Below, piece after piece: positions 4,913 through 58,445 of a stretch of 64,000 nucleotides of DNA. The notes beneath the pieces were generated by a model. That model was not told the DNA's origin and ran no database searches. It was given only the letters and a program-made list of their open reading frames with translations. The DNA comes from Bacteroidaceae bacterium (GTDB lineage Bacteria; Bacteroidota; Bacteroidia; Bacteroidales; Bacteroidaceae). The stretch covers positions 1 to 64,000 of the forward strand of contig JAFYNL010000032.1 of the NCBI GenBank assembly GCA_017548075.1, in the 5' to 3' direction. A program made the translations under genes and the position numbers. The first letter of the stretch is position 1, and each line of letters opens with the position of its first letter.

Positions 4913-4988
4913 ACTGCAGTTACGTTGGCAAACATAACACGTTAAAATGTCAAACGTAACACGTTAACTTTGCGAAGTTAACTGCAGT
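4913..4988. repeat. 22-bp-pitch core array A (4 cores)
   Basis: Ten-base cores begin at 4913 (ACTGCAGTTA), 4935 and 4957 (TAACACGTTA) and 4979 (TAACTGCAGT), exactly 22 bp apart. The two outer cores are inverted copies of one another, so the array is bounded by inverted CTGCAG ends. The array starts 13 bp after the stop at 4899 and is followed by CGTTTG. Same family as the arrays at 11825, 22691, 33130, 37753, 54847 and 58370. Confidence 0.9.
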
Positions 4989-5050
4989 CGTTTGAAAACG
5001 TCTCCAGCCATTATTCTGAAGAAATGCTTGCATATTACGGAAAATTGTAT

Positions 5051-5058
5051 TATCTTTG
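5051..5058 (+). promoter_or_regulatory. Bacteroidetes -7 box for the SGNH hydrolase gene
   Basis: TATCTTTG followed by GCAGCAG, with a TTG at 5028-5030 about 20 bp upstream, matches the sigma-ABfr consensus (-33 TTTG, -7 TAnnTTTG). The expected transcript start is near 5064, leaving a leader of about 30 nt before the ATG at 5095. Confidence 0.75.
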
Positions 5059-5094
5059 CAGCAGATTCAAACAGGATAAACACTATTCAAATTG

Positions 5095-8000
5095 ATGAAA
5101 GCGAGACAGACATTACTGATGCTTGCCCTGCTTGCAAGCGTGCTAAGTGCTGGAGCACAAGTTGTGGAGCGCACTTTCTATGTCGACTTCGGTCAGAACA
5201 ATGTGGCCAATCAGGGCTACAAGACTGTCGGAGCCGACAAGAACGGACACTATTGGAACAATATCTTCGGCAAAGGAACGGCTGCTCCAGATAAAGCTTA
5301 CCCGCAGACGATTAGTCTTGTGACTTCCAGCAATACGACGACTGACTGCAGTTTGCAGCTTTCGTCTCGCTTCTCGACGAATGGTTACACAAATGGCGGC
5401 TTGCAGAATCCGTCGGCTTCCTTGCTTGGCGACCTCGCTATCGAGAGTGCCACTCAGGATTATATCTTCCTGGAAGGCGGTCAGGACTATGGCGTCATTC
5501 ACTTCAAAGGACTCGATCAGAGCAAAGGCTACAGGTTCTATATGTTTGGCTCGCGAACTGCGACAGATACCAGAGCAGCCGATTTCGACCTGACTGGCGA
5601 GAATTGTTGGCGCGAGGAAATGGCGATGTCGGGCTCTGGAATTGGGAATGGAGGCTATAACGGCAACAATAATAATGTCCTGACTTCAGAACTTATCTTC
5701 CCAGACAAGAGCGGAAACATCGACCTCACCATCATCAAGAAGACCTCAGGCATAATGGTCTATCTCAATTGCATGAAGATTGAGGAGGTTTCTGGTGTGG
5801 AGCGGCCAAATCAGGAACTCGCTTTTGTCCAAAAGATGTACTTCGATTTTGGCGAGACAACCAACGGAACTCGAGGTCATCAGACTACTGGAACAGACGC
5901 TAACGGCAACAAATGGAACAATGTCAGCTCGGGTTCGAGCAGTAGTAATGCAGTCGCGGCAAACAAGACTATTTCAGTCAAGAATAGCGAAGGCACTTCT
6001 ACTGGAGCCAGATTCATAGTCGTGGAAAAGACTTATACCAATGGCATTGATGCTGGAGGCAATAATAATCCTACTGCTGAAGACTTGGGAGACCTCGCCA
6101 TCAAGACTGCAACTGAGGATTATGTCTTCATAGATAACGGAGATGTGCGTTCCTTCAAACTCACCAAACTGAATGTCGATCATTGTTATCGCTTCTTCAT
6201 CTATGGCTCGCGAAATATCGACAGTAATCGCGCAACACTTTATACCATAAAGGGACAAAGGACTTGGACTGGCGGACAAACAACTTCTGGCTCCAATATA
6301 GGTGGCGAAGACTATAACGGCAACCTGCGAAACATCTTGCAGACCGATTATATCTATCCCGACAAGAGCGGCAATATCGTCATTACTTACCAGCGAGTCT
6401 TCGGAATGGCACACATTAGTGCGATGAGGATAGAAGAGTTCGAAGGTGGAACTCGCCCAGAAGAACCGCTCGAATTCAGTAGTCTGTCGCTTAGTGGAAA
6501 TGCAGAAGATGTGACGTTCAAATCGCTTGGAAGCAATCTTTACGAAGCCTTTGCCCGTCTCGAAGCAGGCTCTTTCAATCTTTCTGGCATAGTTGATGGC
6601 GAAACAATCAACCTTTCCGATAATGGTGACGGCAGTTTTGGTGTCGAAGGCGAAACGCCATTCTCAGTCGCACAAAACTGTGTGGCTCGCATCACAGTCA
6701 ATACTGGCAACAAAACTGTTACGGTCCTTCCTGTTACAATGAATGTTCGAGGCAATATGGGAGCAGGCAATCCCACTATTCCTTACAAGGCTGATGGAGT
6801 CTTCGAAGGTGAGGTGACGCTTCAAGAGACTGCCTCTCAGCAATGGGTTGACAAGACGATGTACTTCGCCCTCAACAACGACGATGCCCTCGCAATCAAG
6901 CGTCTTCAAGGAGCAGCCACAAGATATGTGCTCGGAGAAGTAGAGAAGGGACAAAGTGTGGAGAACATCTACCAGAACTCAGGCACTTATACCATAACCG
7001 TCAACATGAAGGATATGGTTTACGACATAGCCGCTCCTATCGACGAGAACCGCATATCTGTCTTTGGTTCTTCAGTGGCGAATGGTCAAGGCGCTACCGA
7101 TTACAAGGGCTATCGCTACCTTTATGGTCAGCAACTTATTGCTCGCCATAATGAAGGAAGGAGCGAAAATGCCTTCTACACCTCGAATGTTTCGATTGGA
7201 GGCAATACCACAGTCAATCTCTTGAATCGTTATGATGACCTGATTCGCGACTTTGGCCGTTATGTCATCTTCGGTCTTTCGCTTGGAAACGAAGGCATTC
7301 ATGGAGCAAGCAACCAGCAAAGTGTCTTCAATCAATGGCGCGACAATATGCTCACACTTATTAATAAGGTAAGAGCTGACGGCAAGATTCCGATGGTGAT
7401 GAACAACTATACTCGAGGCGACTACAATGACGATGACTATTATTATGTGAAGCAACTCAACTTGCTCATTCACGAATGGAATGTTCCATCTACCAATGTG
7501 CTCGGAGCTATCGACAAAGGTAATGGGCAATGGGCTGATGGCTATGTTTCCGACACCTATCATCAGAACACAGCCGGCCATGCAGAATTCATGTATGCAA
7601 TGGTTCCTTCGCTCTTCGACGCTATTAAAGCGGGCAAGGCTCAGCCGGTTCGCAATCGGACAAGGAGTATGACAATTGAGGCAGGAAAGAGCCTTTCCTT
7701 CGAACCTGAAGAGACGGTTCACCCCTTTACAATAACTGTTCGCATCAAAGGAACTGAAGGCCAGGTCGTTTCTCTCGCTCAAGCCGTCAACTTGCAGGAA
7801 GCCATAGTTCGAGTCAACGAAGACGGCACAGTCACTTATACTGCTCCTTCAGGCTCTTCGATTACATCCACGAAGACCATCAACGACGGCAATTGGCACT
7901 ATGTCACCCTAACAAGTTACTTTGCTCAGCGCAGAACAATCCTCTATATAGATAAGGTAAAGGTTGGCGAAGTAGGGGAGCGTTTGTCGAAGATTGAAGT

Positions 8001-8865
8001 CGTGAATGTGGGCGACGAAAGCAATAGTCGCGAAGTTAGCGAGTTGTTCTTCTGGCGTTCAGGAATGACGCCTGAAGAGATAAGTGCCGTTTGCGATGGA
8101 CGAATGCTGAAGTCGAGCCTCGAGATTTATGCTCCTCTTGGCGGAGAAACTGATATCGAGAACCTCGCACAAAGCACGAATCGCCTCCATTACGGCAATG
8201 TCAGGACAAAGGAATACGAGCGAGCAAGTGCTGATGTCTTCTTTATTCCTGATGAAGGCTCTGCAGGTTTCAGTTCGAGCGAAAACTATGATAAGATAGT
8301 CGACGACAATACATCCACCAAATGGTGCCTTAATGGGGGCGAAGGCAACGAGGTGTATAACATCTTTCATGCTTCTTTGCCTATCTTTGTGACTGGTTAC
8401 AAGATTACTACAGCCAACGATAATGCCTCCTATACTGGTCGCAATCCGAAGGCTTGGAAGTTCTATGGCTCTACTGCCGACAGCAATCCTGGAGTGGATG
8501 ACAGTTCTTGGGAACTCATCGCTTCTGTCAGTAATGACACGAAACTAAGGGATGTGAACTTCACAACCTATACTTACACCCTTCCTGCAGAGACTCAAAA
8601 GGCCTATCAAAGCTTCAAATGGGTGATTTCGGCTCGCAAAGGTGGAGGCAACGGAGTGATTCAAGTTTCCGAGTTTCGCCCAACATTTAATGATGCTTTG
8701 GTTGAAGTCCCTTTTCTCGACGATGATGATACAGGCATAAACAACCTTTTTGACCTAAATGACCTTAATGACACAATCTACAATCTCGCAGGTCAGCGTC
8801 TTGCAAAGATGCAGAAGGGCTTGAACATCATCGGAGGGAAGAAAATAGTTAATAACAGATGGTAA
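5095..8865 (+). CDS. Secreted multidomain SGNH/GDSL-like hydrolase with T9SS-type tail
   Basis: 1256 residues from the ATG at 5095 (a TTG lies just before it). The N-terminus is a signal peptide ending in SAGAQ. Two tandem repeats of about 200 residues follow, each starting (F)Y(V/F)DFG and containing a WNN motif; these look like galactose-binding or carbohydrate-binding modules. After a beta-rich segment comes an SGNH hydrolase domain (about residues 650-850) with block I FGSSVANG, block II IGGNTTVNL, block III SLGNEG and block V DTYHQNTAGH (Asp/His). Then come a LamG-like domain (about 875-1000, containing GNWHYVTL), an F5/8 type C-like domain (about 1057-1200, DDNTSTKWC) and a C-terminal tail IYNLAGQRLAKMQKGLNIIG typical of T9SS cargo. 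Likely a cell-surface esterase acting on acylated glycans; substrate unknown. Confidence 0.85.
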   Translation: MKARQTLLMLALLASVLSAGAQVVERTFYVDFGQNNVANQGYKTVGADKNGHYWNNIFGKGTAAPDKAYPQTISLVTSSNTTTDCSLQLSSRFSTNGYTNGGLQNPSASLLGDLAIESATQDYIFLEGGQDYGVIHFKGLDQSKGYRFYMFGSRTATDTRAADFDLTGENCWREEMAMSGSGIGNGGYNGNNNNVLTSELIFPDKSGNIDLTIIKKTSGIMVYLNCMKIEEVSGVERPNQELAFVQKMYFDFGETTNGTRGHQTTGTDANGNKWNNVSSGSSSSNAVAANKTISVKNSEGTSTGARFIVVEKTYTNGIDAGGNNNPTAEDLGDLAIKTATEDYVFIDNGDVRSFKLTKLNVDHCYRFFIYGSRNIDSNRATLYTIKGQRTWTGGQTTSGSNIGGEDYNGNLRNILQTDYIYPDKSGNIVITYQRVFGMAHISAMRIEEFEGGTRPEEPLEFSSLSLSGNAEDVTFKSLGSNLYEAFARLEAGSFNLSGIVDGETINLSDNGDGSFGVEGETPFSVAQNCVARITVNTGNKTVTVLPVTMNVRGNMGAGNPTIPYKADGVFEGEVTLQETASQQWVDKTMYFALNNDDALAIKRLQGAATRYVLGEVEKGQSVENIYQNSGTYTITVNMKDMVYDIAAPIDENRISVFGSSVANGQGATDYKGYRYLYGQQLIARHNEGRSENAFYTSNVSIGGNTTVNLLNRYDDLIRDFGRYVIFGLSLGNEGIHGASNQQSVFNQWRDNMLTLINKVRADGKIPMVMNNYTRGDYNDDDYYYVKQLNLLIHEWNVPSTNVLGAIDKGNGQWADGYVSDTYHQNTAGHAEFMYAMVPSLFDAIKAGKAQPVRNRTRSMTIEAGKSLSFEPEETVHPFTITVRIKGTEGQVVSLAQAVNLQEAIVRVNEDGTVTYTAPSGSSITSTKTINDGNWHYVTLTSYFAQRRTILYIDKVKVGEVGERLSKIEVVNVGDESNSREVSELFFWRSGMTPEEISAVCDGRMLKSSLEIYAPLGGETDIENLAQSTNRLHYGNVRTKEYERASADVFFIPDEGSAGFSSSENYDKIVDDNTSTKWCLNGGEGNEVYNIFHASLPIFVTGYKITTANDNASYTGRNPKAWKFYGSTADSNPGVDDSSWELIASVSNDTKLRDVNFTTYTYTLPAETQKAYQSFKWVISARKGGGNGVIQVSEFRPTFNDALVEVPFLDDDDTGINNLFDLNDLNDTIYNLAGQRLAKMQKGLNIIGGKKIVNNRW

Positions 8866-9710
8866 ACGACAAGATGTTCTCTGTTGCTGGCGAGCCAACT
8901 GTAGTAGCTGAAGTTCGCAAGAAAGTTCTCGAGGAGTTCGAGGACCTCGAGTTCTTTGCCGACGGACATCGTTATATCTTGAACGGAAAGTCGTTGCCTT
9001 CTGTTTCAAATGTCGCTCATCGATTCGTAAAAGAGCCTTTCAACGAACAACTGCAGGCTATTCGCTATGCAGAAAAGAAGGGCGAGACTCCTGAATATTG
9101 GATTCAACTATGGCGACAGAACTCTTTCCGAGCAACAAGGCTGGGCACAAAGACGCATGCCTATGCCGAAAGTCTTGGCTATCTTAGGGCAGGAATGCCT
9201 GAGCGCATCTGTCCTTCTATAAAGCCGCAATATATGCATGAGTACAACTTCCTTGCTCCCATCCATCCAAAGGAAGAGGCTGCCCTCAAGTTCATGAATG
9301 ATTTGCCAAGCAGCATGCACTTAGTGCTCAACGAAGCAATGGTGTATAGCGGCAAGAACGCTTGCGAGGAGAGAAATCTCAAGGAGCAGCTGGCAGGAAC
9401 TTTCGATATGCTCTACTATAATGACGGGACGAATGGCAAGCCTGCAGGCTTCATCATTCTCGACTATAAGACTAATGCCAACCTCGCCAACGAAAGCAAT
9501 CGCAGGTATGGACGCATGCTTCTCCCTCCCTTTAATGATTTGACGGAAGAAGACTATTCGCTCTATTCTATTCAGTTGAGCCTTTATGCTCTCATGCTCG
9601 AGGACATCGGCATTCCCATTATGGCTCGATGCATAGTGTGGCTGAGAGACGGTAACTATCAGTTGGTCCCTGTTACGGACCTTTCCGAGAAACTTCGACA
9701 AACGCTATGA
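8859..9710 (+). CDS. RecB-like PD-(D/E)XK nuclease family protein
   Basis: 283 residues. The core shows GTFDMLYY (about residue 180), then a strand ending ILDYKTN (about residue 200), and QLSLYALMLE (about residue 238): the D...(D/E)xK and QxxxY motifs of RecB/Cas4-like nucleases. A GxxxHAYAE motif lies near residue 90 (TRLGTKTHAYAES), as in exonuclease-type PD-(D/E)XK folds. No helicase or Zn/Fe-S cysteine cluster is present, so it is a stand-alone nuclease domain. The ATG at 8859 overlaps the end of the SGNH gene by 7 bp; ATG 8874 is an alternative start. It is followed 23 bp later by the J-domain gene, so the two are probably co-transcribed. The fold call is good; biological role (repair, phage-derived or other) is unknown. 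Confidence 0.75.
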   Translation: MVNDKMFSVAGEPTVVAEVRKKVLEEFEDLEFFADGHRYILNGKSLPSVSNVAHRFVKEPFNEQLQAIRYAEKKGETPEYWIQLWRQNSFRATRLGTKTHAYAESLGYLRAGMPERICPSIKPQYMHEYNFLAPIHPKEEAALKFMNDLPSSMHLVLNEAMVYSGKNACEERNLKEQLAGTFDMLYYNDGTNGKPAGFIILDYKTNANLANESNRRYGRMLLPPFNDLTEEDYSLYSIQLSLYALMLEDIGIPIMARCIVWLRDGNYQLVPVTDLSEKLRQTL

Positions 9711-9733
9711 ACCTACTACCTTGAACTAAAGCT

Positions 9734-10150
9734 ATGTCTTGTCTGATAAGTTATAAATGGATATTTGGCCTGATAGGCCTTTATATAAATGGAGGCAGAG
9801 GCTTCATCTTCGGCTTCCTCATTGGTTGGCTTCTTGATTCTATGTATCGAAGGCCCACCATTCACTTCACTTATCAGCAAGGCTCTGCCGACGATTTCTC
9901 TGGCTATCAGAAGGAAGAAAGGAAATGGCAGCCTTATGTCGACGTAACCCTTCAGGAAGCCTATCGCACTCTTGGCCTTCGCGAAACAGCTACCATCGAA
10001 GAAGTTCGTCAGGCCTATCGAGAGTTGGCTCTTCGTTATCATCCTGACAGAGTTGCTGGAAAAGGAGAGGCTGCTCGAGAAGAAGCAGAGAAAAAGTTTC
10101 GCGAAATAACAGAAGCAAGAGACATTATTATGAGAGCGAGAGGACAATAA
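9734..10150 (+). CDS. Membrane-anchored J-domain protein (DjlA-like, no TerB domain)
   Basis: 138 residues. The N-terminal 37 residues form one glycine-rich membrane segment (FGFLIGWLLDSMY), strongly reminiscent of the DjlA transmembrane anchor with its GxxxG-like pattern. A linker follows, then a C-terminal J domain (about residues 72-135) with the invariant HPD at 103-105 (RYHPDRV). J domains recruit and stimulate DnaK. DjlA proteins normally have a TerB domain between anchor and J domain; here it is missing, so the protein is about half the usual length. It lies 23 bp after the nuclease gene and probably shares its transcript. Confidence 0.85.
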   Translation: MSCLISYKWIFGLIGLYINGGRGFIFGFLIGWLLDSMYRRPTIHFTYQQGSADDFSGYQKEERKWQPYVDVTLQEAYRTLGLRETATIEEVRQAYRELALRYHPDRVAGKGEAAREEAEKKFREITEARDIIMRARGQ

Positions 10151-10291
10151 TATTATAATGTGAAAGGCTAAAGCCTGTCGAATAGCAGCCAAGACGCCAT
10201 TTTTTTACATTTCTCTTCACATTTTGCCAAACTTTTTAAAGAAAAGTGAAAAAAAAAGGTCAAAAAGTTTTGGAGGTTAGGAAAAAAGCAC

Positions 10292-10299
10292 TAAATTTG
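10292..10299 (+). promoter_or_regulatory. -7 box for the cohesin-like operon
   Basis: TAAATTTG with TTTGG at 10269-10273, 18 bp upstream, followed by a leader of about 40 nt to the ATG at 10345. This supports 10345 rather than an upstream in-frame codon as the start, because the upstream candidates precede the promoter. Confidence 0.75.
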
Positions 10300-10344
10300 C
10301 AGCAGAAAACTATAAAAACAACATTAATAACAAAACTAAGTTTT

Positions 10345-11019
10345 ATGAAAAAGAGAATTTTACTTTCACTGATGTCATTCTTCGCAATGACAGCAATGTG
10401 GGCAAACATTACCGGCGCTTACAGCCTCTATCTGAGTGCAGACGCTAATGGTAAGCAAGGCGAAGAAGCCACCCTTACATTGAACCTGAAGAATCGTAAT
10501 GCTATTGCCACTTTTGAGGCTACATTGACTCTTCCCGAAGGCGTTACTTTCGTTGATGGAAGTGCAACCCTTCTTGACGCTCGTGTTCCCGAAGGTGCAG
10601 AACCCGAGTTCTCAGCTACTGTAAATGAAGATGGTACTGTTACTTTCGCATTCGCTCTCGAAGGCGTTGCTTTGACAGGTACTGATGGCGCAGTTGCTAC
10701 CTTCAAGGTTGCAGTTGACATGGCTGCTACTGTTGGTGAGAACACTTTGACCTTGAGCAATCAAAAGATGTACGAGGTTAACAGTGCTGAACACAAATTT
10801 GAGGCTACTGAGTTCAAGTGGACCATCGAAGAAGGCGAAGTTGCTATTCTTGGTGACGTGAATGCTGACGGCGAGGTTACAATTGCTGACTTTGTTGCTG
10901 TTCTGAATGCAATGGCAGGTGCGGAAGTTCCTGGTGAGCCCGATGTAAATGGTGACGGTGACGTTACTATTGCCGATGCTGTAAAAGTTCTGAACATCAT
11001 GGCTGGTGCAACTGAATAA
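10345..11019 (+). CDS. Secreted cohesin-like plus dockerin protein
   Basis: 224 residues with a signal peptide (MKKRILLSLMSFFAMTAMWA). Residues about 24-155 form a cohesin-like beta sandwich (LYLSADANGKQGEEATLTL, TLPEGVTFV, GAVATFKVAVDM), the fold that binds dockerins in cellulosomes. Residues about 170-222 carry two calcium-binding dockerin repeats, DVNADGEVTIAD and DVNGDGDVTIAD, with the Asp/Asn ligands at positions 1, 3, 5 and 12 intact. No catalytic domain is present. The gene is followed 52 bp later by a second cohesin-like gene. Dockerin-type tails also occur on many Prevotella secreted proteins without any proven cellulosome, so the binding function is inferred. Confidence 0.85.
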   Translation: MKKRILLSLMSFFAMTAMWANITGAYSLYLSADANGKQGEEATLTLNLKNRNAIATFEATLTLPEGVTFVDGSATLLDARVPEGAEPEFSATVNEDGTVTFAFALEGVALTGTDGAVATFKVAVDMAATVGENTLTLSNQKMYEVNSAEHKFEATEFKWTIEEGEVAILGDVNADGEVTIADFVAVLNAMAGAEVPGEPDVNGDGDVTIADAVKVLNIMAGATE

Positions 11020-11071
11020 TTCATTAAATAGGAAATAATAAGTATAAACCAATTAATAAATTCAAGCAACA

Positions 11072-11824: not shown

Positions 11825-11944
11825 ACCTTAAGGTAATTCGCAAACTACCTTAAGGTCGTTGGCAAACTTAACGTGTTATGATTGTAAAGTTAACGTGTTA
11901 AGTTGCCCAACTTAACACGTTAACTTTCGCAACAACCCTAGCCG
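11825..11944. repeat. 22-bp-pitch core array B (6 cores)
   Basis: Cores start at 11825 and 11847 (both ACCTTAAGGT, perfect palindromes), 11869 and 11891 (TAACGTGTTA), 11913 (TAACACGTTA) and 11935 (ACCCTAGCCG), exactly 22 bp apart. The first two cores also form a long inverted repeat, ACGACCTTAAGGTA / TACCTTAAGGTCGT, around a 10-bp loop. The array lies between two convergent genes. Confidence 0.9.
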
Positions 11945-22690: not shown

Positions 22691-22788
22691 TGCCTAGTGT
22701 CGTTGGCAAACGTAACACGTTAACTTTGCCAACTTAACACGTTACGTTTGCAATCATAACACGTTAACTTTAGTAACGTAACTGCAGT
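22691..22788. repeat. 22-bp-pitch core array C (5 cores)
   Basis: Cores at 22691 (TGCCTAGTGT), 22713, 22735 and 22757 (TAACACGTTA) and 22779 (TAACTGCAGT), each exactly 22 bp apart. It fills the gap between the convergent trmO and pyruvyl transferase genes. No separate U-tract terminator is visible here. Confidence 0.9.
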
Positions 22789-27165: not shown

Positions 27166-29358
27166 TCAATGGATGAACAGCATTTCTCTGTACTTAGGTA
27201 GAGGCCAAAGCTCGTCGTCTACGATGAGTTCGAGGTGGTCTACATGATAACGAATCTCCTCAATTAGAGGCGCAACGGTGTCGTGATAGGCAATGGCGCG
27301 TTCTCTGCCGTCCTTGATGCGATTGGCCACTCGACGAGCCTCAATGAGTCGTTCCACATTTTCAATAATGAAAGTGTTGTGCTCGCCCATTTGCTTGATG
27401 AGGCTCAGGTTGGTGCTATTCAGAGGATCTGCAACATCGGCAGGGAAGATTTGCTTCATTCTGTGCACATTGTCAATGAGTTGTGTCTGGTAGCGAGTCG
27501 CAACAGGAATAATGTGATTCATGCAGATATCGCCGAAGATGCGAGCCTCAATCTGTACCTTCTTGATGTAAGTGTCGAGCTTAATCTCGTTGCGAGCCTC
27601 CAGTTCGGCTTTCGTGAGGACGTTCATCCTGCTGAACATCTCGACTGTTTCCGGCTTGAGATACTGGTCGAGAATGATGGGAGCGCTCGTTTCTGTGTCG
27701 AGTCCTCTTCTGGCAGCCTCTTGTTTCCAAGCCTCGCTGTATCCGTTTCCGTCGAAGTGGATTGGCTTGCAAGCCTTGATGTCCTCGCGAACGATGCGAA
27801 GGATGGCTTTCATGGGCTCAATTCCTTCTGCAATCAAAGCATCCACGCGAACCCTGAAGTCGGTCAAAGCCTCTGCCATAGCGGTATTCAGAACAATCAT
27901 CGCTGAGGCACAGTTCTGCTGACTTCCTACAGCTCGGAACTCGAATCTGTTGCCTGTAAAAGCAAATGGCGAAGTACGATTGCGGTCAGTATTGTCCTGC
28001 GTTAACTCTGGAATCTGTGGAATATCGAGGCTGAGCGTCTGTTTGCCTGAGAGTTGAATAAGTTCATCGTCTGTGCTGGTCTCCAAATGTTCGAGCAAGT
28101 CGCTCAATTGCTTGCCGAGGAAACTCGATACAATGGCTGGTGGGGCTTCCGATGCTCCAAGTCGATGCACATTGGTTGCGCTGATGATAGAAGCCTTGAG
28201 CAAGCCATTATGGCGATAGACTGCCATCAACGACTCCACGATGAAAGTGACAAAACGCAAGTTGTCGAGTGGCGTTTTGCCTGGTCCATGCAGCAAGATG
28301 CCGTTGTTTGTCGAGAGACTCCAGTTGCAATGTTTGCCGCTTCCGTTGATGCCGGCAAAGGGTTTTTCGTGCAAGAGGCAACGGAAACCATGTTTGCGAG
28401 CAACCTTCTTCATCAGGCTCATGATGAGCATATTGTGGTCAACCGCAAGGTTCGTCTCCTCGAAGATGGGAGCAAGCTCGAACTGATTGGGCGCCACCTC
28501 ATTATGTCGCGTTTTGCAAGGGATGCCCAACTCAAGTGCCTTTATCTCAAGGTCTTTCATAAAAGCGGCAACTCGCATAGGAATGGAGCCGAAGTAGTGG
28601 TCGTCCATCTGCTGATTCTTCGCGCTGTCGTGACCAAGAAGGGTGCGGCCTGTCATCAGCAAATCAGGTCGAGCTGCATAAAGACCCTCGTCGACGAGGA
28701 AGTATTCCTGTTCCCAACCGAGATTGCTGACGACGCGATTAACATCGGGATAAAAGTAACGTGCGACGGCTGTAGCAGCTTCGTCAACGGCTTTAAGCGA
28801 CTTCTTGAGTGGAGCCTTGTAGTCGAGAGCCTCGCCAGTATAGGAGATGAAGATAGTAGGAATCATCAAGGTGTCGCCAAAGACGAAGACAGGACTCGTC
28901 GGATCCCAAGCCGAGTAGCCTCGAGCCTCGAATGTGGAGCGGATTCCACCACTGGGGAACGAGCTTGCATCGGGCTCTTGCTGAACAAGTTGCTTGCCCG
29001 TGAACTCTTCAATCATGCCGCCTTTACCATCGTGCTCAACAAAGCCGTCGTGCTTCTCGGCTGTGCCTTCAGTCAATGGTTGGAACCAATGCGTGCAATG
29101 TGTTGCTCCGAGCTCCATCGCCCACTTCTTCATGCCTGCAGCCACAGCATCGGCAGTTGCCATATCGAGGGCAGCGCCACCATCGATGACGTCACACATC
29201 TTCTTATAAACATTCGAGGGCAGATAGTGCTGCATCTTCTGTCGGTTGAAGACATACTTTGCAAAGAACTCGCTTGGACGCTCTTTGCGATTGGGCACTT
29301 CGACGGGCCTTTTCTTGAATGCCTCGCCTACAATCTGAAACCTAAGTGTACTGGACAT
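27166..29358 (-). CDS. glnN: Glutamine synthetase type III
   Basis: 730 residues, the normal size of GSIII. Motifs include CTHWFQPLTEGTAEKHDGF, GGIRSTFEARGYSAWDP, NEVAPNQFELAPIFEE and KPFAGINGSGKHCNWS, the ATP and glutamate site blocks of the glutamine synthetase superfamily in GSIII arrangement. It makes glutamine from glutamate, ammonia and ATP and is the common assimilation enzyme in Bacteroidetes. It lies 5 bp downstream of aguB, an enzyme that releases ammonia, which makes functional coupling plausible. Confidence 0.96.
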   Translation of the reverse strand: MSSTLRFQIVGEAFKKRPVEVPNRKERPSEFFAKYVFNRQKMQHYLPSNVYKKMCDVIDGGAALDMATADAVAAGMKKWAMELGATHCTHWFQPLTEGTAEKHDGFVEHDGKGGMIEEFTGKQLVQQEPDASSFPSGGIRSTFEARGYSAWDPTSPVFVFGDTLMIPTIFISYTGEALDYKAPLKKSLKAVDEAATAVARYFYPDVNRVVSNLGWEQEYFLVDEGLYAARPDLLMTGRTLLGHDSAKNQQMDDHYFGSIPMRVAAFMKDLEIKALELGIPCKTRHNEVAPNQFELAPIFEETNLAVDHNMLIMSLMKKVARKHGFRCLLHEKPFAGINGSGKHCNWSLSTNNGILLHGPGKTPLDNLRFVTFIVESLMAVYRHNGLLKASIISATNVHRLGASEAPPAIVSSFLGKQLSDLLEHLETSTDDELIQLSGKQTLSLDIPQIPELTQDNTDRNRTSPFAFTGNRFEFRAVGSQQNCASAMIVLNTAMAEALTDFRVRVDALIAEGIEPMKAILRIVREDIKACKPIHFDGNGYSEAWKQEAARRGLDTETSAPIILDQYLKPETVEMFSRMNVLTKAELEARNEIKLDTYIKKVQIEARIFGDICMNHIIPVATRYQTQLIDNVHRMKQIFPADVADPLNSTNLSLIKQMGEHNTFIIENVERLIEARRVANRIKDGRERAIAYHDTVAPLIEEIRYHVDHLELIVDDELWPLPKYREMLFIH

Positions 29359-33129: not shown

Positions 33130-33249
33130 TAACGAGGGTTGTTCGAAAAGTTAACGTGGTTAAATTGAAAACTTAACGTGTTAAGTTGGCAAAGTTAACG
33201 TGTTACGTTTGCGATCTTAACGTGTTATGTTTGCCAACGTAACTGCAGT
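33130..33249. repeat. 22-bp-pitch core array D (6 cores)
   Basis: Cores begin at 33130 (TAACGAGGGT), 33152 (TAACGTGGTTA, 11 bp), 33174, 33196 and 33218 (TAACGTGTTA) and 33240 (TAACTGCAGT), each exactly 22 bp apart even where one core is a base longer (its spacer is a base shorter). It lies between the terminator at 33086 and the convergent HsdR_N gene. Confidence 0.92.
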
Positions 33250-37752: not shown

Positions 37753-37850
37753 TAACACAGTTAAAATTCAAACGTAACGTGTTACGTTGGCAAAGTTAAC
37801 GTGTTACGATGGCAAACATAACGAGTTAAGTTCGGCAACGACACTAGGGT
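37753..37850. repeat. 22-bp-pitch core array E (5 cores), inside the pyrK-pyrD gap
   Basis: Cores start at 37753 (TAACACAGTTA), 37775 and 37797 (TAACGTGTTA), 37819 (TAACGAGTTA) and 37841 (ACACTAGGGT), exactly 22 bp apart. It starts 13 bp after the pyrK stop and ends 33 bp before the pyrD start, so it is likely transcribed between two subunit genes. Confidence 0.9.
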
Positions 37851-51559: not shown

Positions 51560-53833
51560 ATGCATAAAAAACTTTGGTTGCTTGTCGTTGCAGTCCTTTT
51601 GTGCTGCAATGTTTGGGCCCAGCAGGACAGTGTCCCTGAGGTCAGAAAGGACAGCGTTCTTGAAGTCGTAAAGGATAGTCTGCCTGAAGCTGGGAGGAAA
51701 AAGGTTGGTGTCGTCCTTAGTGGTGGCGGCGCAAAGGGAATGGCACATATCGGCGTTCTGAAAGTTTTGGAACGAGCTGGCATTCCTGTCGATTATATTA
51801 CTGGCACATCGATGGGTAGCATTATTGGCGGCCTGTATGCCATAGGATATAATGCCAACTCGCTCGATTCGTTAGTGCGCAAACAAGATTGGGCTTATCT
51901 CATTTCCGACAAGGAAGACCTTAGCAACCAAGGGCTTAGCGACCGACGCAAGCAAAATACCTATGCTTTTACTTCGGGTTTGAACTTTAACAAGAATGCT
52001 TTTACCGAAGGGGGAATCATAAACGGACATAACCTCTCGGAGCGTTTCCAGAAACTTTGTGTCGGTTATACCGACTCGCTCGATTTCTCGTCGGATTTGC
52101 CGATACCGTTTGCTTGTGTAGCGACAAACATTATCGACAATAGCGAAGTGGTTTTCCATAGTGGCCAGTTGCCGGTAGCAATGCGTGCCTCGATGGCCAT
52201 TCCTGCGGCCTTTTCTCCTGTAAGGCTTGGCAATATGGTTTTGACGGATGGCGGCATGAAGAACAATTATCCCGCCGACATCGCCAAAGAAATGGGAGCA
52301 GACATTATCATTGGTGTTACCGTTCAGGGAGCTCCAAAGACTGCCGACGAGATAAGGGGAACGATGGCTGTCCTAAACCAGATTATTGATATAAACTGCA
52401 AGAACAAACTCGAGGAAAATATTGCCATGACCGACTTGCATATGCGAGTCAATACGACGGGCTATAATACTGCGAGTTTCTCTGCAACTGCCGTCGATAC
52501 GCTAATTCGTCGAGGTGAGGAAGAAGCTATGCGTCATTGGGATGAGTTGATGGCTTTGAAGAAACTTATCGACATCGACGAGTCGTCCATTCCTGCCCCA
52601 CACCAACCTTTGCATCCAAATATAATGGCTGAGCGGCAACGTGTTGTTGGCTTCACATTCAATAATATGACGCCGCAAGATGAACGTTTCTTGCGTCAGA
52701 AATTCCACTTGCATAAGACAGATAGCATAGATGCTAATTTAGAGCAACAGCTCACAACCTCTATGCGCATGGACCTCTTCTACAAGACCGCCGAATGTCG
52801 ATTGAAGTCGGAAAATGATGGCGTTCGAGTCATCCTAACAGCAGGCGAACGCAAGGCGGCACAAGTCTATGCAGGTTTGCGTTTTGACTCAGAAGAATAT
52901 GCTGCCCTGTTGTTAGGAATCGATATTCCTTTGAAGGCCTCAGTGCCGATGAACACAGAACTTACAGTTCGACTGGGAAAGCGTATTATGGCTCGTGGCG
53001 ATTTTACTGTACACCCTCGCAGTTTTACCAGTCCCACATTGAGCTACACTTTCCGCAGAAACGATGTCGATATCTATTCAGGTGGAAGTAGAGCCTACAA
53101 TGTTCTATACAACCAGTTCCAATTGGAGGCAACGCCTATCAATTTCGACTATCGTCATTTCGGTTTCCAGGTAGGTTTGCGTTGGGACTATTTGCATTAT
53201 CACAGTAAACTCGAGTCATCGCATTCCGAGGAGATTCAATTCAAGAATAGACATTACCTCAGTTATCGTGCTCGTCTTGAATACAACATCGAGGACGACT
53301 GGTATTTCCCGACTCGAGGAGCCCGATTTAAGGCAGAATATGCCTATTTGACTGACAACTTTGTCAAGCTTGAGGGCAATGCCGGTCTGAACATAATAAG
53401 TGCGGATTGGCGCAAGTCGTTTACCTTTGGTCAGCGTTTCACCCTTCAACCAATGGTTTATGGCCGTTTCCTTTTGGGTAAGGCAGTCCCATCTATTTTT
53501 GCCAATACTATTGGTGGAGAGTGGTTTGGCCATTACTTGGAGCAACAGATGCCTTTTGCCGGCGTAGGCAATATGGAGTTTGTAGGCGACCAATTCCTGG
53601 CAGCACAACTTCAAGGACAGCTTCGCATTGCTTCAAACAACTATGTGCTCCTTCGTTGGGCTATGGCTCAGCAGTCTGAAAAGTTAAAGGAACTCTTCGA
53701 CCACAAGATGCTTTACGGCATTCAGGCTGCCTACTATTATAAAACTATGTTTGGCCCTCTTGGAGCGACCTTAGGTTATAGCAACCGCACGAAAAAGCCT
53801 TACTTCTTCCTGAACCTTGGGTATGAGTTCTAA
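51560..53833 (+). CDS. Patatin-like phospholipase fused to outer-membrane barrel
   Basis: 757 residues. A signal peptide (ending VWAQQ) is followed by the patatin domain: VLSGGGAKGMAHIGVLKVLE (oxyanion loop), DYITGTSMGSIIGGLYA (GxSxG nucleophile) and VLTDGGMKNNYP (DGG, the Ser-Asp dyad partner). From about residue 340 to the end runs a POTRA-like segment and a BamA-like 16-strand barrel (final LGYSNRTKKPYFFLNLGYEF). This is the PlpD class of type V-like phospholipases but tied to Bacteroidetes, where the protein stays at the outer membrane. The DUF4421 gene overlaps its end by 11 bp. Confidence 0.93.
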   Translation: MHKKLWLLVVAVLLCCNVWAQQDSVPEVRKDSVLEVVKDSLPEAGRKKVGVVLSGGGAKGMAHIGVLKVLERAGIPVDYITGTSMGSIIGGLYAIGYNANSLDSLVRKQDWAYLISDKEDLSNQGLSDRRKQNTYAFTSGLNFNKNAFTEGGIINGHNLSERFQKLCVGYTDSLDFSSDLPIPFACVATNIIDNSEVVFHSGQLPVAMRASMAIPAAFSPVRLGNMVLTDGGMKNNYPADIAKEMGADIIIGVTVQGAPKTADEIRGTMAVLNQIIDINCKNKLEENIAMTDLHMRVNTTGYNTASFSATAVDTLIRRGEEEAMRHWDELMALKKLIDIDESSIPAPHQPLHPNIMAERQRVVGFTFNNMTPQDERFLRQKFHLHKTDSIDANLEQQLTTSMRMDLFYKTAECRLKSENDGVRVILTAGERKAAQVYAGLRFDSEEYAALLLGIDIPLKASVPMNTELTVRLGKRIMARGDFTVHPRSFTSPTLSYTFRRNDVDIYSGGSRAYNVLYNQFQLEATPINFDYRHFGFQVGLRWDYLHYHSKLESSHSEEIQFKNRHYLSYRARLEYNIEDDWYFPTRGARFKAEYAYLTDNFVKLEGNAGLNIISADWRKSFTFGQRFTLQPMVYGRFLLGKAVPSIFANTIGGEWFGHYLEQQMPFAGVGNMEFVGDQFLAAQLQGQLRIASNNYVLLRWAMAQQSEKLKELFDHKMLYGIQAAYYYKTMFGPLGATLGYSNRTKKPYFFLNLGYEF

Positions 53834-54839
53834 GAAACGCATATTATTATTGTTGATTCTTCACTCTTTACTCTTCGCTTTTCATTCGACTGCGCAGAGC
53901 CGCTTTAAGAGGTTCTTGACGAAAGCCGACAGCATACTAACGGATCGCTATTATCATACGTCTTACGACACAAATTATGTGGTCAGACCTGAAGGGAAAT
54001 TGACCTTGAAACTCAAGGGAGACCAAACAGGCAACGGCATTCGAGCTAAAGGAACAGTACACGACCTCAACTTCAAGTCCCATTTGAGCACAAGCTACAA
54101 GACGACTATCTCTATTGCGGGAACTTATCGAGGTCTTTCAGCTTCCTATTCCATCAATCCTGCTAAACTTGCAGGTTTCTACGAAGACTATGAGTTGAAC
54201 ATCAATTACTATGCAAGCCGTTTCTGTATTGATGCCAGCTATCAGCGCTCTTCCTCACTTTCGGGCAACATGACACTTGGAGAAAATTCGTTTCGGATGG
54301 AGTCGGGAGAAGCAGACATGAAGGTCTTTAATATCACGGGTTATTATGTCTTCAACCATCGTCGCTACTCAGTTTCAGCCGCCTACAATCAGAGCTACAT
54401 CCAGCGTCGCTCGGCTGGTTCGTGGCTTGCGGGGTTGAGCTATCAAGGTGGAAGCATCAAAACGAGTGACGAACGGAAAGAGCAGAAACCAGACAGCCCC
54501 GATGTACGTATCGGAGTAGGGCATATAGGTATCGGAGGCGGCTATGGCTATAACCTCGTTCTCGGCAAGAAATGGCTCCTCAATCTTACTTTGCTTCCCA
54601 CTTTCGTGGTCTATAATCGAAACAAACTGACCATAAACGACGAGAGTCGACACGCAGGACGAATGAAGTTCAACATGCTCTTCAACGAGCGAGCCGCCGT
54701 CGTTTATAACTTCTCTTCACGTTATTTTGTCGGACTTACTGCAGTAGCAAACAACTCTGTTTTTGTAGATGATGCCGTTAAGGTTCATCAAAACAAATGG
54801 GTTGCCCATGCCTTTGTTGGAGTACGACTTTGGGAGTAA
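53823..54839 (+). CDS. DUF4421 outer-membrane protein
   Basis: 338 residues from ATG 53823. A signal peptide (ending FHSTAQ) is followed by KFVVRPEG-like and beta-barrel strands (NYYASRFCIDASYQ, GIGGGYGYNLVLGKKWLLNL) ending HAFVGVRLWE. The DUF4421 family occurs in Bacteroidetes, often near patatin-type genes. The start overlaps the patatin gene by 11 bp. The last 18 codons are present again at 58309-58362, and array F follows 7 bp after the stop. Confidence 0.82.
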   Translation: MSSKKRILLLLILHSLLFAFHSTAQSRFKRFLTKADSILTDRYYHTSYDTNYVVRPEGKLTLKLKGDQTGNGIRAKGTVHDLNFKSHLSTSYKTTISIAGTYRGLSASYSINPAKLAGFYEDYELNINYYASRFCIDASYQRSSSLSGNMTLGENSFRMESGEADMKVFNITGYYVFNHRRYSVSAAYNQSYIQRRSAGSWLAGLSYQGGSIKTSDERKEQKPDSPDVRIGVGHIGIGGGYGYNLVLGKKWLLNLTLLPTFVVYNRNKLTINDESRHAGRMKFNMLFNERAAVVYNFSSRYFVGLTAVANNSVFVDDAVKVHQNKWVAHAFVGVRLWE

Positions 54840-54853
54840 GAAAACATAACGTG
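54786..54853 (+). repeat. 68-bp direct repeat, copy 1 (3' end of the DUF4421 gene plus array start)
   Basis: From CATCAAAACAAATGGGTTGC to AACATAACGTG. Copy 2 lies at 58309-58376 with 65 of 68 bases identical; the three differences are synonymous (His, Arg and Glu codons). The homology ends within the first core of the adjoining arrays. Confidence 0.92.
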
Positions 54854-54944
54854 GTTAAAATCCAAACTTAACGTGTTACGTTGACGATTTTAACGTGTGT
54901 CGTTGGCAAAGTTAACGTGTTATGATTGCAAACATAGCTGGCGT
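54847..54944. repeat. 22-bp-pitch core array F (5 cores)
   Basis: Cores begin at 54847 (TAACGTGGTTA), 54869 (TAACGTGTTA), 54891 (TAACGTGTGT), 54913 (TAACGTGTTA) and 54935 (TAGCTGGCGT), exactly 22 bp apart. It starts 7 bp after the DUF4421 stop and lies upstream of the kduD promoter. Confidence 0.9.
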
Positions 54945-55022
54945 CGTTCTCCTCCATCTCGTTTTTGCGCTAAAAAAGTATTAAATGTAATCTGTTATGC
55001 GACGGATTTGGCAAAAAATTCT

Positions 55023-55030
55023 TATATTTG
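55023..55030 (+). promoter_or_regulatory. -7 box of the kdu cassette
   Basis: TATATTTG followed by TAGCTGG, about 54 bp upstream of the kduD ATG at 55084. No clear -33 element at the usual spacing. Confidence 0.6.
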
Positions 55031-55083
55031 TAGCTGGAAACTTTTAAATGGCCATAAACGACACAAATTAAACATTAGAATAA

Positions 55084-55884
55084 ATGGCAAACATCTTTTC
55101 ATTAGAAGGCAAAAATGCTTGGGTTACGGGGGCTTGCTACGGCATCGGCTTCAACATTGCGAAGGCTTTTGTGGAGGCTGGCATCAAGAACATCATCTTC
55201 AACTGCCGCAGCGAAGAGGCTTTGCAACGCGGATACGACAACTATCGAGAGGCAGGCATCAGCAACGCAAAAGGCTACGTCTGCGACGTCACTGACGAAC
55301 AGGCCGTAAAAGCACTTGTGGAGAGGATTCACGAGGAAGTGGGACAGATTGACATTCTGGTAAACAACGCAGGAATCATCAAACGCATTCCCATGCACGA
55401 GATGAAGCGCGAGGAGTTCCAGCAGGTTATCGACATCGACCTCGTAGGTCCCTTCATCTGCTCTTCTGCCGTTCTGCCAGAGATGATGGAGCGTCGAGAA
55501 GGTAAGATTATCAACGTCTGCTCGATGATGTCGGAACTGGGCCGCGAGACGGTAAGTGCTTACGCTGCTGCCAAAGGCGGACTGAAGATGCTGACACGCA
55601 ACATCTGCTCGGAATATGGCGAGTATAACATCCAATGCAACGGCATCGGTCCGGGCTATGTCGCCACGCCTCAGACCGCTCCTCTACGAGAGCGTCAGCC
55701 AGATGGAAGCCGTCATCCTTTCGACAGTTTCATCTGTGCCAAAACTCCTGCAGGTCGTTGGCTCGAACCCGAGGAAGTGGGCGGTCCTGCAGTATTCCTG
55801 GCTTCTCACGCTTCGGATGCCGTCAACGGGCACATCCTGTATGTAGATGGAGGCATTCTGGCTTACATTGGGAAACAACCTTAA
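55084..55884 (+). CDS. kduD: KduD/gluconate 5-dehydrogenase-like SDR
   Basis: 266 residues. VTGACYGIGFNIAKAF is the TGxxxGxG dinucleotide site, VNNAGIIKRIPMHEM the NNAG motif, and NVCSMMSELGRETVSAYAAA(K) the Ser-Tyr-Lys catalytic set. HILYVDGGILAYIG is the normal SDR end. KduD reduces 2,5-diketo-3-deoxygluconate to KDG, the last step before KDG kinase. The adjoining kduI gene supports this over gluconate 5-dehydrogenase, which is the closest alternative. Confidence 0.88.
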   Translation: MANIFSLEGKNAWVTGACYGIGFNIAKAFVEAGIKNIIFNCRSEEALQRGYDNYREAGISNAKGYVCDVTDEQAVKALVERIHEEVGQIDILVNNAGIIKRIPMHEMKREEFQQVIDIDLVGPFICSSAVLPEMMERREGKIINVCSMMSELGRETVSAYAAAKGGLKMLTRNICSEYGEYNIQCNGIGPGYVATPQTAPLRERQPDGSRHPFDSFICAKTPAGRWLEPEEVGGPAVFLASHASDAVNGHILYVDGGILAYIGKQP

Positions 55885-55915
55885 AATATTAAACATTGAA
55901 CACTGAACATTGAAA

Positions 55916-57286
55916 ATGGAGCAGGTTTTCAGTTATATCATCAGTTTGGGAGCTTCGGTGATGATGCCGATTCTGTTTACCATTATTGGGCTTTGCATCG
56001 GACTGAAGTTCGGAAAGTCTTTGAAGTCAGGACTTTATGTGGGTGTGGGATTCGTAGGTCTTGGCATCGTGACAGCCTTGTTGACGAATAACTTCGGTGG
56101 GCCGCTGAGTGATATTTCACGCCTGTACGACCTTCAGCTTGGCGTTTTCGATATGGGATGGCCCGCAGCCGCTGCAGTAGCCTACAACACAGCCGTCGGG
56201 GCTTTAATTATTCCCATCTGTCTGGGTGTAAACTTCCTGATGCTCCTCACCAAAACTACGCGAACTATCAACATAGACCTCTGGAACTATTGGCACTTTG
56301 CTTTCATCGGAGCTGTGGCTTATTTTGTGATGGGAGAGAGTCTGGCTTGGGGTTACTTCGCAGCTATCGTGTGCTATATCAATACTTTGGTAATGGCCGA
56401 TCTCACGGCAAACAAGTTCCAGGGCTACTACGAAAATATGGAAGGCATCTCCATTCCGCAGCCTTTCTGCCAGAGCTTCACAGCCTTTGCTATGGGCATC
56501 AACTGGTTGCTTGACAAGATTCCTGGTTTTTCTAAGCTTGATATTGATGCTGAGGGACTGAAGAAGAAGTTCGGAGTGCTTGGAGAACCTTTGGTATTGG
56601 GCGTGATTGTTGGTATGTTGATTGGTGCTTTGGCTCAACTCGATATCAAAAAGATACTGTTCCTGGGCGTTACGATGGGAGCTGTGATGGAACTCATCCC
56701 TCGCATCACCAAGTTGTTTATCGACGGACTGATGCCCATTTCGAAGAAGACTCAGGAGATGGTGAAGAGGAAGTTCAACGGCAAGAAAGTATATATAGGA
56801 ATGTCGCCAGCACTCGTAATCGGACATCCCACCACATTGGTAGTGAGCCTTTTGCTCATTCCTGTAACGCTTGGAATGGCCGTCATCCTGCCGGGCAATG
56901 CGTTCTTGCCTTTGGCTTCGCTGGCAGGAATGTTCTATGTCTTCGTAATGGTGCTCCCCTATACAAAAGGAAACGTAGTGAAGACCTTTGTCGTAGGACT
57001 GATAGCTCTTGCCGTCGGGCTTTACTTTGTGACCGATATGGCTCCAGCATTCACGCAAGCTGCCCATTCTGTCTTCAATCAGACAGGCGACAATGCTGCA
57101 AAGATACCTGAAGGCTTCGAGGCTGGTGCACTCGACTTCGCAAGCTCACTCTTCGGATGGGTTATCTACAAGTGCGTGAACAACTTGCAATGGGTTGGTA
57201 TGGGTGTGCTGACCGTCTTTACTTTGGGCATGATGTGGTGGAACCGCAGACGCATCATTGCCGACGAGGAACAATCAAAACAATAA
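55916..57286 (+). CDS. Orphan EIIC (galactitol/ascorbate-type) sugar transporter
   Basis: 456 residues from ATG 55916, about 11 membrane helices ([40 protein letters not shown], and others). The sequence fits the EIIC-GAT family (GatC/UlaA relatives) of phosphotransferase systems. There is no IIA or IIB domain or gene, nor EI/HPr, in the window, so it probably transports without phosphorylation. Its place between kduD and kduI suggests import of an unsaturated uronate product. ATTGAA-type repeats stand just upstream of the start. Confidence 0.78.
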
Positions 57287-57293
57287 TATAAAT

Positions 57294-58277
57294 ATGAAGA
57301 AACTGTTTTTAAGCTTGTTGGTTATGAGTTCAATAGCTGTATCTGCCCAGCAGACAATGAATTTCCAGACGGCTTGTCATCCTGAAGATGTTAAGCATTA
57401 CGACACACAGACTCTGCGCGACAGATTCGTGATGGAGAAGGTAATGGCTGCCGACGAAATCAATCTGACTTATTCAATGTACGACCGCTTTATCTTTGGC
57501 GGAGCAATGCCTGTTACAAAAGACTTAAAGTTGGAGACGCATCCTCAACTTCGTGCCAACTATTTCATGCGCAATCGAGAACTTGGAATCATCAATACTG
57601 GCGGCGATGGTGTGGTAATCGTCGATGGTCAGGAGTATCCTTTGGGTTATAGCGAGGCTCTTTATGTTGGTCGAGGATGGCTCGGCAAAGACAAGAACGG
57701 AAAGGACATCGACACCAATAAAGAGGTGATATTCCGTTCGAAAGATGCTAAGAACCCCGCTAAGTTCTATCTGAATTCAGCTACTGCCCATCAGCATTAC
57801 AAGACGCAATGGGTTACCCTCGACGGACGAAAGAACGGGAAGGTACAGAGCCTGAAGGCTGTGATTGTGGGTACTAAGGAGAAACCTCTTGGAACAAAGG
57901 CTGAGAGCAACCTGCGCACCATCAACCAATTGATTGTGAACACAGCCCTCGAGGAAGGTCCTTGCCAACTCCAAATGGGTTTAACGCAACTGCAGGAAGG
58001 CTCTGTGTGGAACACGATGCCACCTCACACTCATGGCCGTCGAGTAGAAGCATACTACTACTTCAACGTGCCTGAAGGTCAAACCGTTAGTCACATTATG
58101 GGAGAGCCTCAGGAGAGCCGAGTCGTTTGGTTGCACAACGAACAAGCCATTATGTCGCCAGAGTGGAGCATCCATTGCGCTAGCGCCACATACTACTACA
58201 CCTTTATCTGGGGTATGGCTGGCGAGAACCTCGACTACAACGACAAAGACGTCATCGAGGTAGGTGACTTAAGATAG
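57294..58277 (+). CDS. kduI: KduI isomerase with a signal peptide (periplasmic)
   Basis: 327 residues, about 50 longer than E. coli KduI. The extra part is an N-terminal signal peptide, [20 protein letters not shown]. The core is typical: [41 protein letters not shown] (zinc ligands His, His and Glu) and [14 protein letters not shown] (the fourth His). KduI converts 5-keto-4-deoxyuronate to 2,5-diketo-3-deoxygluconate. The signal peptide places this step in the periplasm, before import by the neighbouring transporter, with KduD acting afterwards in the cytoplasm. The start is 8 bp after the transporter stop. Confidence 0.92.
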
Positions 58278-58308
58278 AATTTATCTTTACATCAGTACTC
58301 TGACTGCC

Positions 58309-58362
58309 CATCAAAACAAATGGGTTGCCCACGCCTTTGTTGGAGTACGCCTTTGGGAATAA
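58309..58362 (+). pseudogene. Remnant: last 17 codons and stop of a DUF4421 gene
   Basis: Encodes HQNKWVAHAFVGVRLWE and a stop, identical in protein to the end of the gene at 53823-54839. No further homology lies upstream of 58309. It belongs to the 68-bp direct repeat (copy 2) and lies 31 bp after the kduI stop. Confidence 0.88.
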
Positions 58363-58376
58363 GAAAACATAACGTG
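58309..58376 (+). repeat. 68-bp direct repeat, copy 2
   Basis: 65 of 68 bases match 54786-54853. Together the copies bracket the kduD-EIIC-kduI cassette (54854-58308). Confidence 0.92.
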
Positions 58377-58445
58377 CCTAGTTTGTCAACTAAGCACGTT
58401 ATGTTTGCGAACGTAACACGTTAAGTTTGCGATTTAACCTAGGTG
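58370..58445. repeat. 22-bp-pitch core array G (4 cores)
   Basis: Cores begin at 58370 (TAACGTGCCT), 58392 (AAGCACGTTA), 58414 (TAACACGTTA) and 58436 (AACCTAGGTG), exactly 22 bp apart. It lies between the DUF4421 remnant and the convergent rho stop at 58453. Confidence 0.88.

Follow-up and report, generated by a model that had tools for sequence, protein, structure and literature searches.

Phased repeats of dimer sites packed side by side are familiar from iterons, met boxes, TnsB/MuA sites and parS, which occupy a few loci and have fixed letters. Bacterial interspersed mosaic elements (BIMEs) are described as regularly spaced repetitive extragenic palindromic (REP) sequences in alternating orientation that are bound by several proteins (PMC2817692, PMC3733652). 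BrickBuilt, a miniature inverted-repeat transposable element (MITE) of Porphyromonas gingivalis, has a period of 23, the unit AGAYCATARTATCCTCTCRTRTG, terminal inverted repeats and 19 loci in ATCC 33277 (PMC4596501). We analysed a 64,000-nucleotide stretch of a Bacteroidaceae bacterium genome (contig JAFYNL010000032.1, positions 1 to 64,000; hereafter the window) that holds seven arrays of short palindromic cores set at an exact pitch of 22 bp, and found no description of 22-bp-pitch arrays in this group among the open-access papers searched. Across the genus and parts of the family, the arrays retain their pitch and symmetry but not their letters, and a single protein of fixed specificity therefore cannot account for every array. 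We put at about even the chance that the arrays are contiguous 22-bp sites for a putative dimeric, helix-phased DNA-binding protein that would form a boundary at gene ends.

An exact 22-bp pitch in the window and its genome

The original prediction, made from the letters of the window, had located seven arrays, and all seven are present at those positions:

Array A, 4913..4988, minus strand: two TAACGTGTTA-type cores (4935, 4957) at 22-bp pitch, with a CTGCAG core at either end; the stop codon of the plus-strand gene 88..4899 precedes it.
Array B, 11825..11944, plus strand: CCTTAAGG cores at 11825 and 11847, TAAC..GTTA cores at 11869, 11891 and 11913, and a CTAG core at the right edge; convergent genes on either side.
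Array C, 22691..22788, minus strand: exact cores at 22713, 22735 and 22757, with CTAG and CTGCAG edges; a trmO-like gene converges on a minus-strand gene.
Array D, 33130..33249, plus strand: four cores (33152, 33174, 33196, 33218) plus edges, the 33152 core having 11 bp and an 11-bp spacer; between convergent genes, directly beyond a hairpin with a T-run.
Array E, 37753..37850, plus strand: four cores between pyrK, as we name a gene for an electron-transfer subunit of dihydroorotate dehydrogenase, and pyrD.
Array F, 54847..54944, plus strand: four cores (54847, 54869, 54891, 54913) and a degenerate edge core; a stop codon lies 7 bp before it.
Array G, 58370..58445, minus strand: three cores (58370, 58392, 58414) and a AACCTAGG edge, 3' of rho; the first two cores have mixed half-sites (TAACGTG-CCT, TAACGTG-CTT).

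The prediction had counted 35 cores. Outer palindromes in register (CTGCAG, CCTTAAGG and CTAG types) bring the count towards that figure; a strict count was lower, with 16 exact TAACGTGTTA/TAACACGTTA cores and 23 in register with ≤3 mismatches. Core pairs spaced by 22 bp numbered 14 in the window and 0 in each of 10 dinucleotide-preserving shuffles. The compensated register that had been described, with an 11-bp core followed by an 11-bp spacer, could be read at 33152, 37753 and 54847. Gene calls were made with our own simple codon-usage caller (coding fraction 0.92); as had been claimed, the stop codon of the left-hand gene precedes each of the seven arrays, and four arrays (11825, 22691, 33130 and 58370) lie between convergent genes. 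The other three lie between codirectional genes, past the upstream gene's stop. The rho gene with array G at its 3' end (58453-60222, minus strand) encodes 589 residues, of which 2-587 align to a 413-position hidden Markov model profile, indicating a long insertion ahead of the conserved core.

The window belongs to genome G000 (2.66 Mb in 66 contigs, 88% complete). Our sample of it (464 kb) comprised the window plus another 20 stretches of 20 kb, in runs along four contigs with listed matches. The genome-wide search that the prediction had proposed found the two-core pattern (≤3 mismatches) 267 times in forward and 256 times in reverse orientation in G000, and a reversed control 0 times. Absence elsewhere in the genome, or equal occurrence inside genes, had been named as outcomes that would undo the case for a dispersed family; instead, there were hundreds of matches, and 0 of 51 arrays in the 464 kb fell in called genes. 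This sample held 51 core-seeded arrays, or 55 segments repeating at lag 22, a density of about one array per 8-9 kb that by extrapolation gives about 300 arrays per G000 genome.

The pitch is nearly without exception. In the lag spectrum of the same 464 kb, 55 segments stood at lag 22, 25 at 44, 3 at 21 and 0 at 13-20 and 23. G000 cores (≤1 mismatch) less than 44 bp apart were exactly 22 bp apart in 78 of 78 pairs, with 2 further pairs at 44. The spacers of those 78 pairs carry 224 differences from consensus, and at the indel/substitution ratio of intergenic DNA in two related genomes, G023 and G011, about 22 off-pitch pairs would be expected, taking each spacer difference as an independent neutral event. 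Exact-22 pairs were likewise found in G053 (37/37), G026 (20/20), G134 (19/19), G089 (12/12) and G023 (9/9 and 6/6, <44 bp), using core words picked after the arrays had been seen.

Inner cores of G000 are almost invariant, and their 12-bp spacers form a loose palindrome of the GTTkGCAAAC type. The spacer also contains a TAnnTTTGC motif; a promoter-like reading of it was set aside, as the motif is absent from the units of other species. At the edges, cores often retain the half-site that faces inward and alter the outer one, mirrored at both ends, and mirrored but varying end motifs of the CRACYSCAG type flank many arrays. Inner spacers are less alike within arrays (7.04/12) than between arrays (7.90/12), and neighbouring spacers take turns between a GTTGGC and a GWTTGC flavour (identical at position 4 in 8/40, against 19 expected), so these arrays are not fresh tandem duplications. 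This alternation hints at a 44-bp super-period or at selection against identical neighbours. An exact stretch of at least 40 bp was common to just 4 of 1275 array pairs (the longest, 60 bp, between two arrays), which indicates little recent copying.

Relatives keep the pitch and change the letters

Of the family as predicted, the dispersed, intergenic, 3'-biased placement and the pitch at two helical turns held up, whereas the definition by TAACGTGTTA proved too narrow: the TAACGTGTTA pair is present in 18/61 genomes of the genus. A looser probe, three CGTG motifs at 22-bp pitch, matched 115/139 genus genomes with a maximum of 552 matches (G134: 245 + 307), and among the matches listed its letters were species-specific. 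The reversed control was above chance in many relatives because it too catches 22-bp arrays, and is no neutral control there. The CGTG probe also matched 74/151 genomes in a sample of the family, where other genera have units of their own; it selects for the CGTG centre in those genera, some of whose units have no C-GT-G centre (the CATATATG units of G361 and G446). Elsewhere in the phylum, 22/197 genomes gave 1 to 5 matches and the others 0.

Lag-22 segments were present in 13/18 genus genomes sampled at 11-20 kb, and none was seen in the 11-20 kb samples of G004, G008, G030, G032 and G036. Lag 22 (or 44) led in G026, G035, G134, G053, G015, G052, G089 and G141, each sampled over at least 100 kb; probe matches guided the choice of stretches in G026, G053, G015, G052 and G089 but not in G134 or G141. 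Multiples of 7 bp (14 and 21) were the leading lags in G145 and G146, where lag 22 accounted for 2 and 3 segments, which coexist with runs of TTAACCA- or TTGAACA-type 7-bp repeats (lags 14, 21, 28). The order's other families, sampled over 358 kb, gave 2 lag-22 segments, both from one stretch.

Units in relatives include CAACGTGTTG, CCGCGTGCGG and CTCCGTGGAG, as well as CTCCACGGAG, TACATGTA with AGCAATTGCT, and TTCCATGATGATGGAA; there are often several per genome, and a few of the listed lag-22 segments are low-complexity or non-palindromic. Array size is also regular, 243/312 segments spanning 4-6 unit lengths (some loci overlap). A longer array, of at least 12 CGTGGGAGGAAAACTCCCAAGG units, occurs in another genus of the family (G480, contig C187, 30742-30987). 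Along contig C10 of G023 and contig C19 of G011, TAACGTGTTA-type arrays are interspersed with those of another family (GGTTAACC type, AATAATGGTTAACCTTTTCGGC), likewise at 22-bp pitch. A repeat that keeps pitch and symmetry while its letters turn over easily escapes similarity searches.

Using three AACGTGT motifs as a probe, which itself demands a 22-bp pitch, we recovered mostly rumen and gut metagenome-assembled genomes (MAGs) of Bacteroidaceae, Bacteroidales and Prevotellaceae among the matches listed; cultured carriers included Hoylesella marshii (DSM 16973 has 22-bp arrays), Prevotella disiens, Bacteroides caecigallinarum and Phocaeicola abscessus. The genus of the window is putatively Prevotella-like. 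Two arrays at 22-bp pitch on contig JAIOAU010000003.1 of a Chloroflexi MAG, with GTTTGCAAAC as palindrome and ACACGTTT as units, strikingly resemble the window's spacer although the phylum is unrelated. The same probe found 4 stretches in the whole viral collection; viral contigs thus hardly carry arrays, and a phage origin was rejected.

Turnover at orthologous loci

Exchange of letters at one locus was visible in the gap that holds array E. Among 30 loci found with the pyrK protein and read by eye over 200 bases, 8 had an array after pyrK. The arrays of G000, G005, G026 and G035 have TAAC or TCAC arms, those of G019 and G034 have other letters (AGGCGTGCCT with a like spacer, and GACGCGTC, respectively), and those of G023 and G011 consist of TTAACGTGTTTGGCAATAATGC and like units. 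At the other 22 loci there was no array in the 200 bases after pyrK, and the genes abut in many. A function as stop codons in all frames (22 = 1 mod 3) was rejected, as the G019 and G034 units lack them.

G023 and G011 could be aligned over 160 kb in blocks of 86-96% identity (91% in the largest), and 14/17 G023 arrays were alignable to G011. Substitutions per site amounted to 0.138 in array interiors, 0.103 in other intergenic DNA and 0.077 in coding DNA, whereas indels that are not multiples of 22 occurred at 4.8/kb in array interiors (5 events) versus 10.2/kb in other intergenic DNA (150 events); the sole longer indel in array interiors is exactly 22 bp. Arrays therefore evolve faster in letters and apparently slower in length than their surroundings. 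Pairs changed on both sides numbered 15 against 6.9 expected, and of the 9 that were matched at the outset, 7 remained so. Orthologous arrays stay in place, and, judged by eye, the GT/AC orientation of the G023 array at 29209 differs from that in G011. Among the few gaps compared by eye, there was neither an empty site with a clean junction nor a target duplication.

Placement next to genes

Arrays are densest between convergent genes and mostly lie beside a stop codon. Of the 51 G000 arrays, 18 lie in convergent, 24 in codirectional and 6 in divergent gaps, with 3 at stretch ends; gaps of at least 60 bp in the same DNA comprise 30 convergent, 80 codirectional and 34 divergent ones. Across 17 genomes, 181 lag-22 arrays were placed as 88 codirectional, 53 convergent, 26 divergent, 13 at ends and 1 in a called gene, and at least one gene end adjoins 141 of the 167 placed intergenic arrays (26 adjoin none). 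For codirectional arrays, the median distance is 51 bp to the upstream stop and 144 bp to the following start, the upstream stop being the nearer end for 72/88. Some arrays are located past a terminator-like hairpin.

A dyad probably read in double-stranded DNA

For the 181 arrays, the best dyad matched 0.606 of pairs, compared with 0.481 when unit columns were permuted, and reached z > 2 in 110; it mostly falls between two bases. Outside G000, the pair match at distances d1-d5 from the dyad was 0.23, 0.77, 0.64, 0.62 and 0.60, fell at d6 and was raised again over d7-d9; in G000 it was 0.30, 0.72, 0.77, 0.71 and 0.63 and highest at d9 (0.81), the phase having been chosen on d2-d9, which inflates the values there. 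A four-base hairpin loop would free d2, yet d2 is the strongest pair outside G000, a pattern rather of double-stranded DNA read by a dimer. Outside G000, 178/287 units had a C-NN-G centre and 120 a C-GT-G centre, counted in arrays with z > 2 after choosing between the two dyads without d2; the corresponding figures in G134, which was sampled regardless of probe matches, were 47/62 and 32/62. Each of the 8 arrays found in G400, over 71 kb of stretches chosen by probe matches, consists of 4 cores, with d3 at 1.0, d8 at 0.97, d9 at 0.84 and d4-d7 drawn from several words; d1 and d2 were fixed by the search, whereas d3, d8 and d9 were not.

Pairing in RNA was not what is kept, as G-T was no commoner than A-C on the sense strand (186 versus 245 in the 17-genome array set; 1 versus 11 in three codirectional G400 arrays). 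No covariation was found at array ends, where edges pair no better than shuffled partners, or in the bases flanking exact G000 cores. Together, the free central dinucleotide, the lack of G-U tolerance and the lack of end pairing make the symmetry look like double-stranded DNA read by a dimer, and the dyad statistics fit side-by-side dimers on double-stranded DNA, in line with the side-by-side binding on one DNA face that the original prediction had suggested. A long hairpin or terminator is disfavoured by the edge pairing, the wobble tests and the similar frequency of terminator-like sites at gene ends with and without arrays.

A putative two-turn dimer platform

A dyad in a sequence of period 22 implies another one 11 bp away, so that each array presents symmetric sites on one helix face. 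We propose that members of one protein family would pack side by side on one face of the DNA, two turns per dimer, keeping a contact beside the dyad centre while the arm contacts change fast; the frequent C-GT-G centre fits one such family. Sets of sites may then be retuned as the protein's specificity drifts, with the two-turn packing fixed. Packing of dimers every two turns would account for the pitch, the dyad and the usual size, and drift of specificity for the turnover of letters. Judging from its place, the array could form, in the DNA itself, a boundary at the 3' ends of genes, such as a roadblock or a topological insulator between convergent transcription units.

Several observations weigh against this dimer platform. 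Its binder is a hypothetical protein, and the several unit families within one genome would need paralogues or very loose or flexible arm contacts. Arrays matching the AACGTGT probe also occur, among the matches listed, in unrelated Ferroacidibacillus, a Chloroflexi MAG, Contendobacter and a Ralstonia. The dyad fell below z > 2 in 71/181 arrays and was weak in G015, G089 and G011, and the strongest G000 pairs are d3 and d9, not d2. Divergent gaps, away from stop codons, hold 26/181 arrays (6/51 in G000); the 3'-end bias could reflect mere tolerance of insertions there; and terminator-like sites, found at 11/64 gene ends with arrays and 15/101 without, show no link to termination. Relatives are non-independent samples, with many stretches picked where a probe matched, and the indel deficit rests on 5 events.

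More tentatively, and with somewhat less than even confidence, we suggest that the arrays represent a new class of chromosomal element in the genus and parts of the family, whose geometry is inherited and whose sequence is not: 4-6 dyad-symmetric 22-bp units at gene ends, on which fast-evolving binders would form a two-turn-per-dimer filament and thereby insulate transcription units or block them, hundreds of sites per genome being retuned together as specificity drifts. If the arrays are a protein platform, they would point to a new system of chromosome organization or transcription boundaries among bacteria of gut and rumen, and offer a natural experiment in the co-evolution of a protein with hundreds of sites.

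Alternative explanations

The main rival, which we regard as unlikely, is a selfish REP-like repeat, copied or converted between loci by a putative transposase or recombinase that imposes the 22-bp step, and surviving at gene 3' ends. Species-specific letters, hundreds of extragenic copies and fast replacement of core types at orthologous sites would suit such a repeat, as would the mirrored end motifs and the 60-bp exact stretch in G000. The scarcity of long exact matches between G000 arrays, the stability of orthologous arrays and the lack of a clean empty site in the few gaps compared by eye argue against it. A Y1 transposase of the REP-associated tyrosine transposase (RAYT) type (PF01797) had no match in G000 and none in 9/15 array-bearing genomes, with G053 (97% complete), G361, G398 and G418 (99%) making up the 4/7 near-complete genomes that are free of it; the other 6/15 (3/7 near-complete) had matches, some near the cut-off. 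The near-complete genomes thus leave some room for mobility enzymes: RAYT is absent from 4/7 of them, serine recombinase from only 1/7. A mobile repeat, were it the explanation instead, would imply a new recombinase with a 22-bp ruler.

It is improbable that the units are sites of a site-specific recombinase, even though imperfect arms around an asymmetric central GT resemble crossover sites, the central dinucleotide is free and the GT/AC orientation changes between orthologues, as at G023 29209. A serine recombinase (PF00239) is present in 6/7 near-complete array-bearing genomes; its absence from 9/15 array-bearing genomes, including G000 and G053 (97% complete), is a weak counterpoint, the remaining PF00239-free genomes being at most 89% complete. 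Moreover, a distance of 22 bp leaves little room for neighbouring sites to synapse, and direct repeats would be lost by deletion.

Neutral tandem-repeat dynamics, with 22-bp units arising by slippage and staying palindromic through template switching between inverted copies, are quite improbable. Identical tandem units in some arrays (G053, G134 and G015), the whole-unit indel between G023 and G011, and some lag-22 segments that are low-complexity or 11-bp repeats are in keeping with such dynamics. They do not explain why period 22 is common to arrays with unrelated letters, why G000 spacers are less alike within arrays than between them and alternate, or why the order's other families yielded one stretch with lag-22 segments in 358 kb.

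An RNA element, whether 3' UTR (untranslated region) hairpins or a terminator or stability element, as the original prediction had offered as an alternative, is very unlikely: the 3' location, a moderate self-complementarity of array RNA (mean z -3.1 and -2.7 on the two strands) and some units of other species that on inspection would fold as a stem with a CGUG loop are outweighed by the sense-strand G-U counts, the lack of covariation at array ends and beside exact G000 cores, the fall of the strongest pair outside G000 within the loop, an array orientation of 13 to 11 relative to transcription, 0 matches to Rfam families at gathering score within the window, and arrays beyond terminator-like hairpins.

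Comparison with known systems

REP/BIME elements with RAYT are the nearest known system in behaviour: they too are extragenic, palindromic and present in hundreds per genome, with species-specific letters and a location near gene 3' ends. The arrays described here differ in having a fixed 22-bp pitch at which letters are exchanged, in lacking a hairpin of 20-40 bp and in occurring without RAYT in the majority of array-bearing genomes (9/15); no common GTAG/CGTC tag was seen in the units read by eye, no systematic tag search having been run. BrickBuilt shares with them an intergenic location, tandem units of similar length and a host in the Bacteroidales. Unlike BrickBuilt, the arrays have a period of 22, and their units, compared by eye, do not resemble AGAYCATARTATCCTCTCRTRTG; as for MITE features, their end motifs are mirrored but varying, and the 4/1275 G000 pairs that share at least 40 bp share at most 60. 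Nor are they a CRISPR, as had been stated from the outset, for 10-bp cores alternate with related 12-bp spacers, in contrast to identical repeats of >20 bp with unrelated spacers. Unlike iterons and cooperative operator arrays, they are found at hundreds of loci, and their letters change between species.

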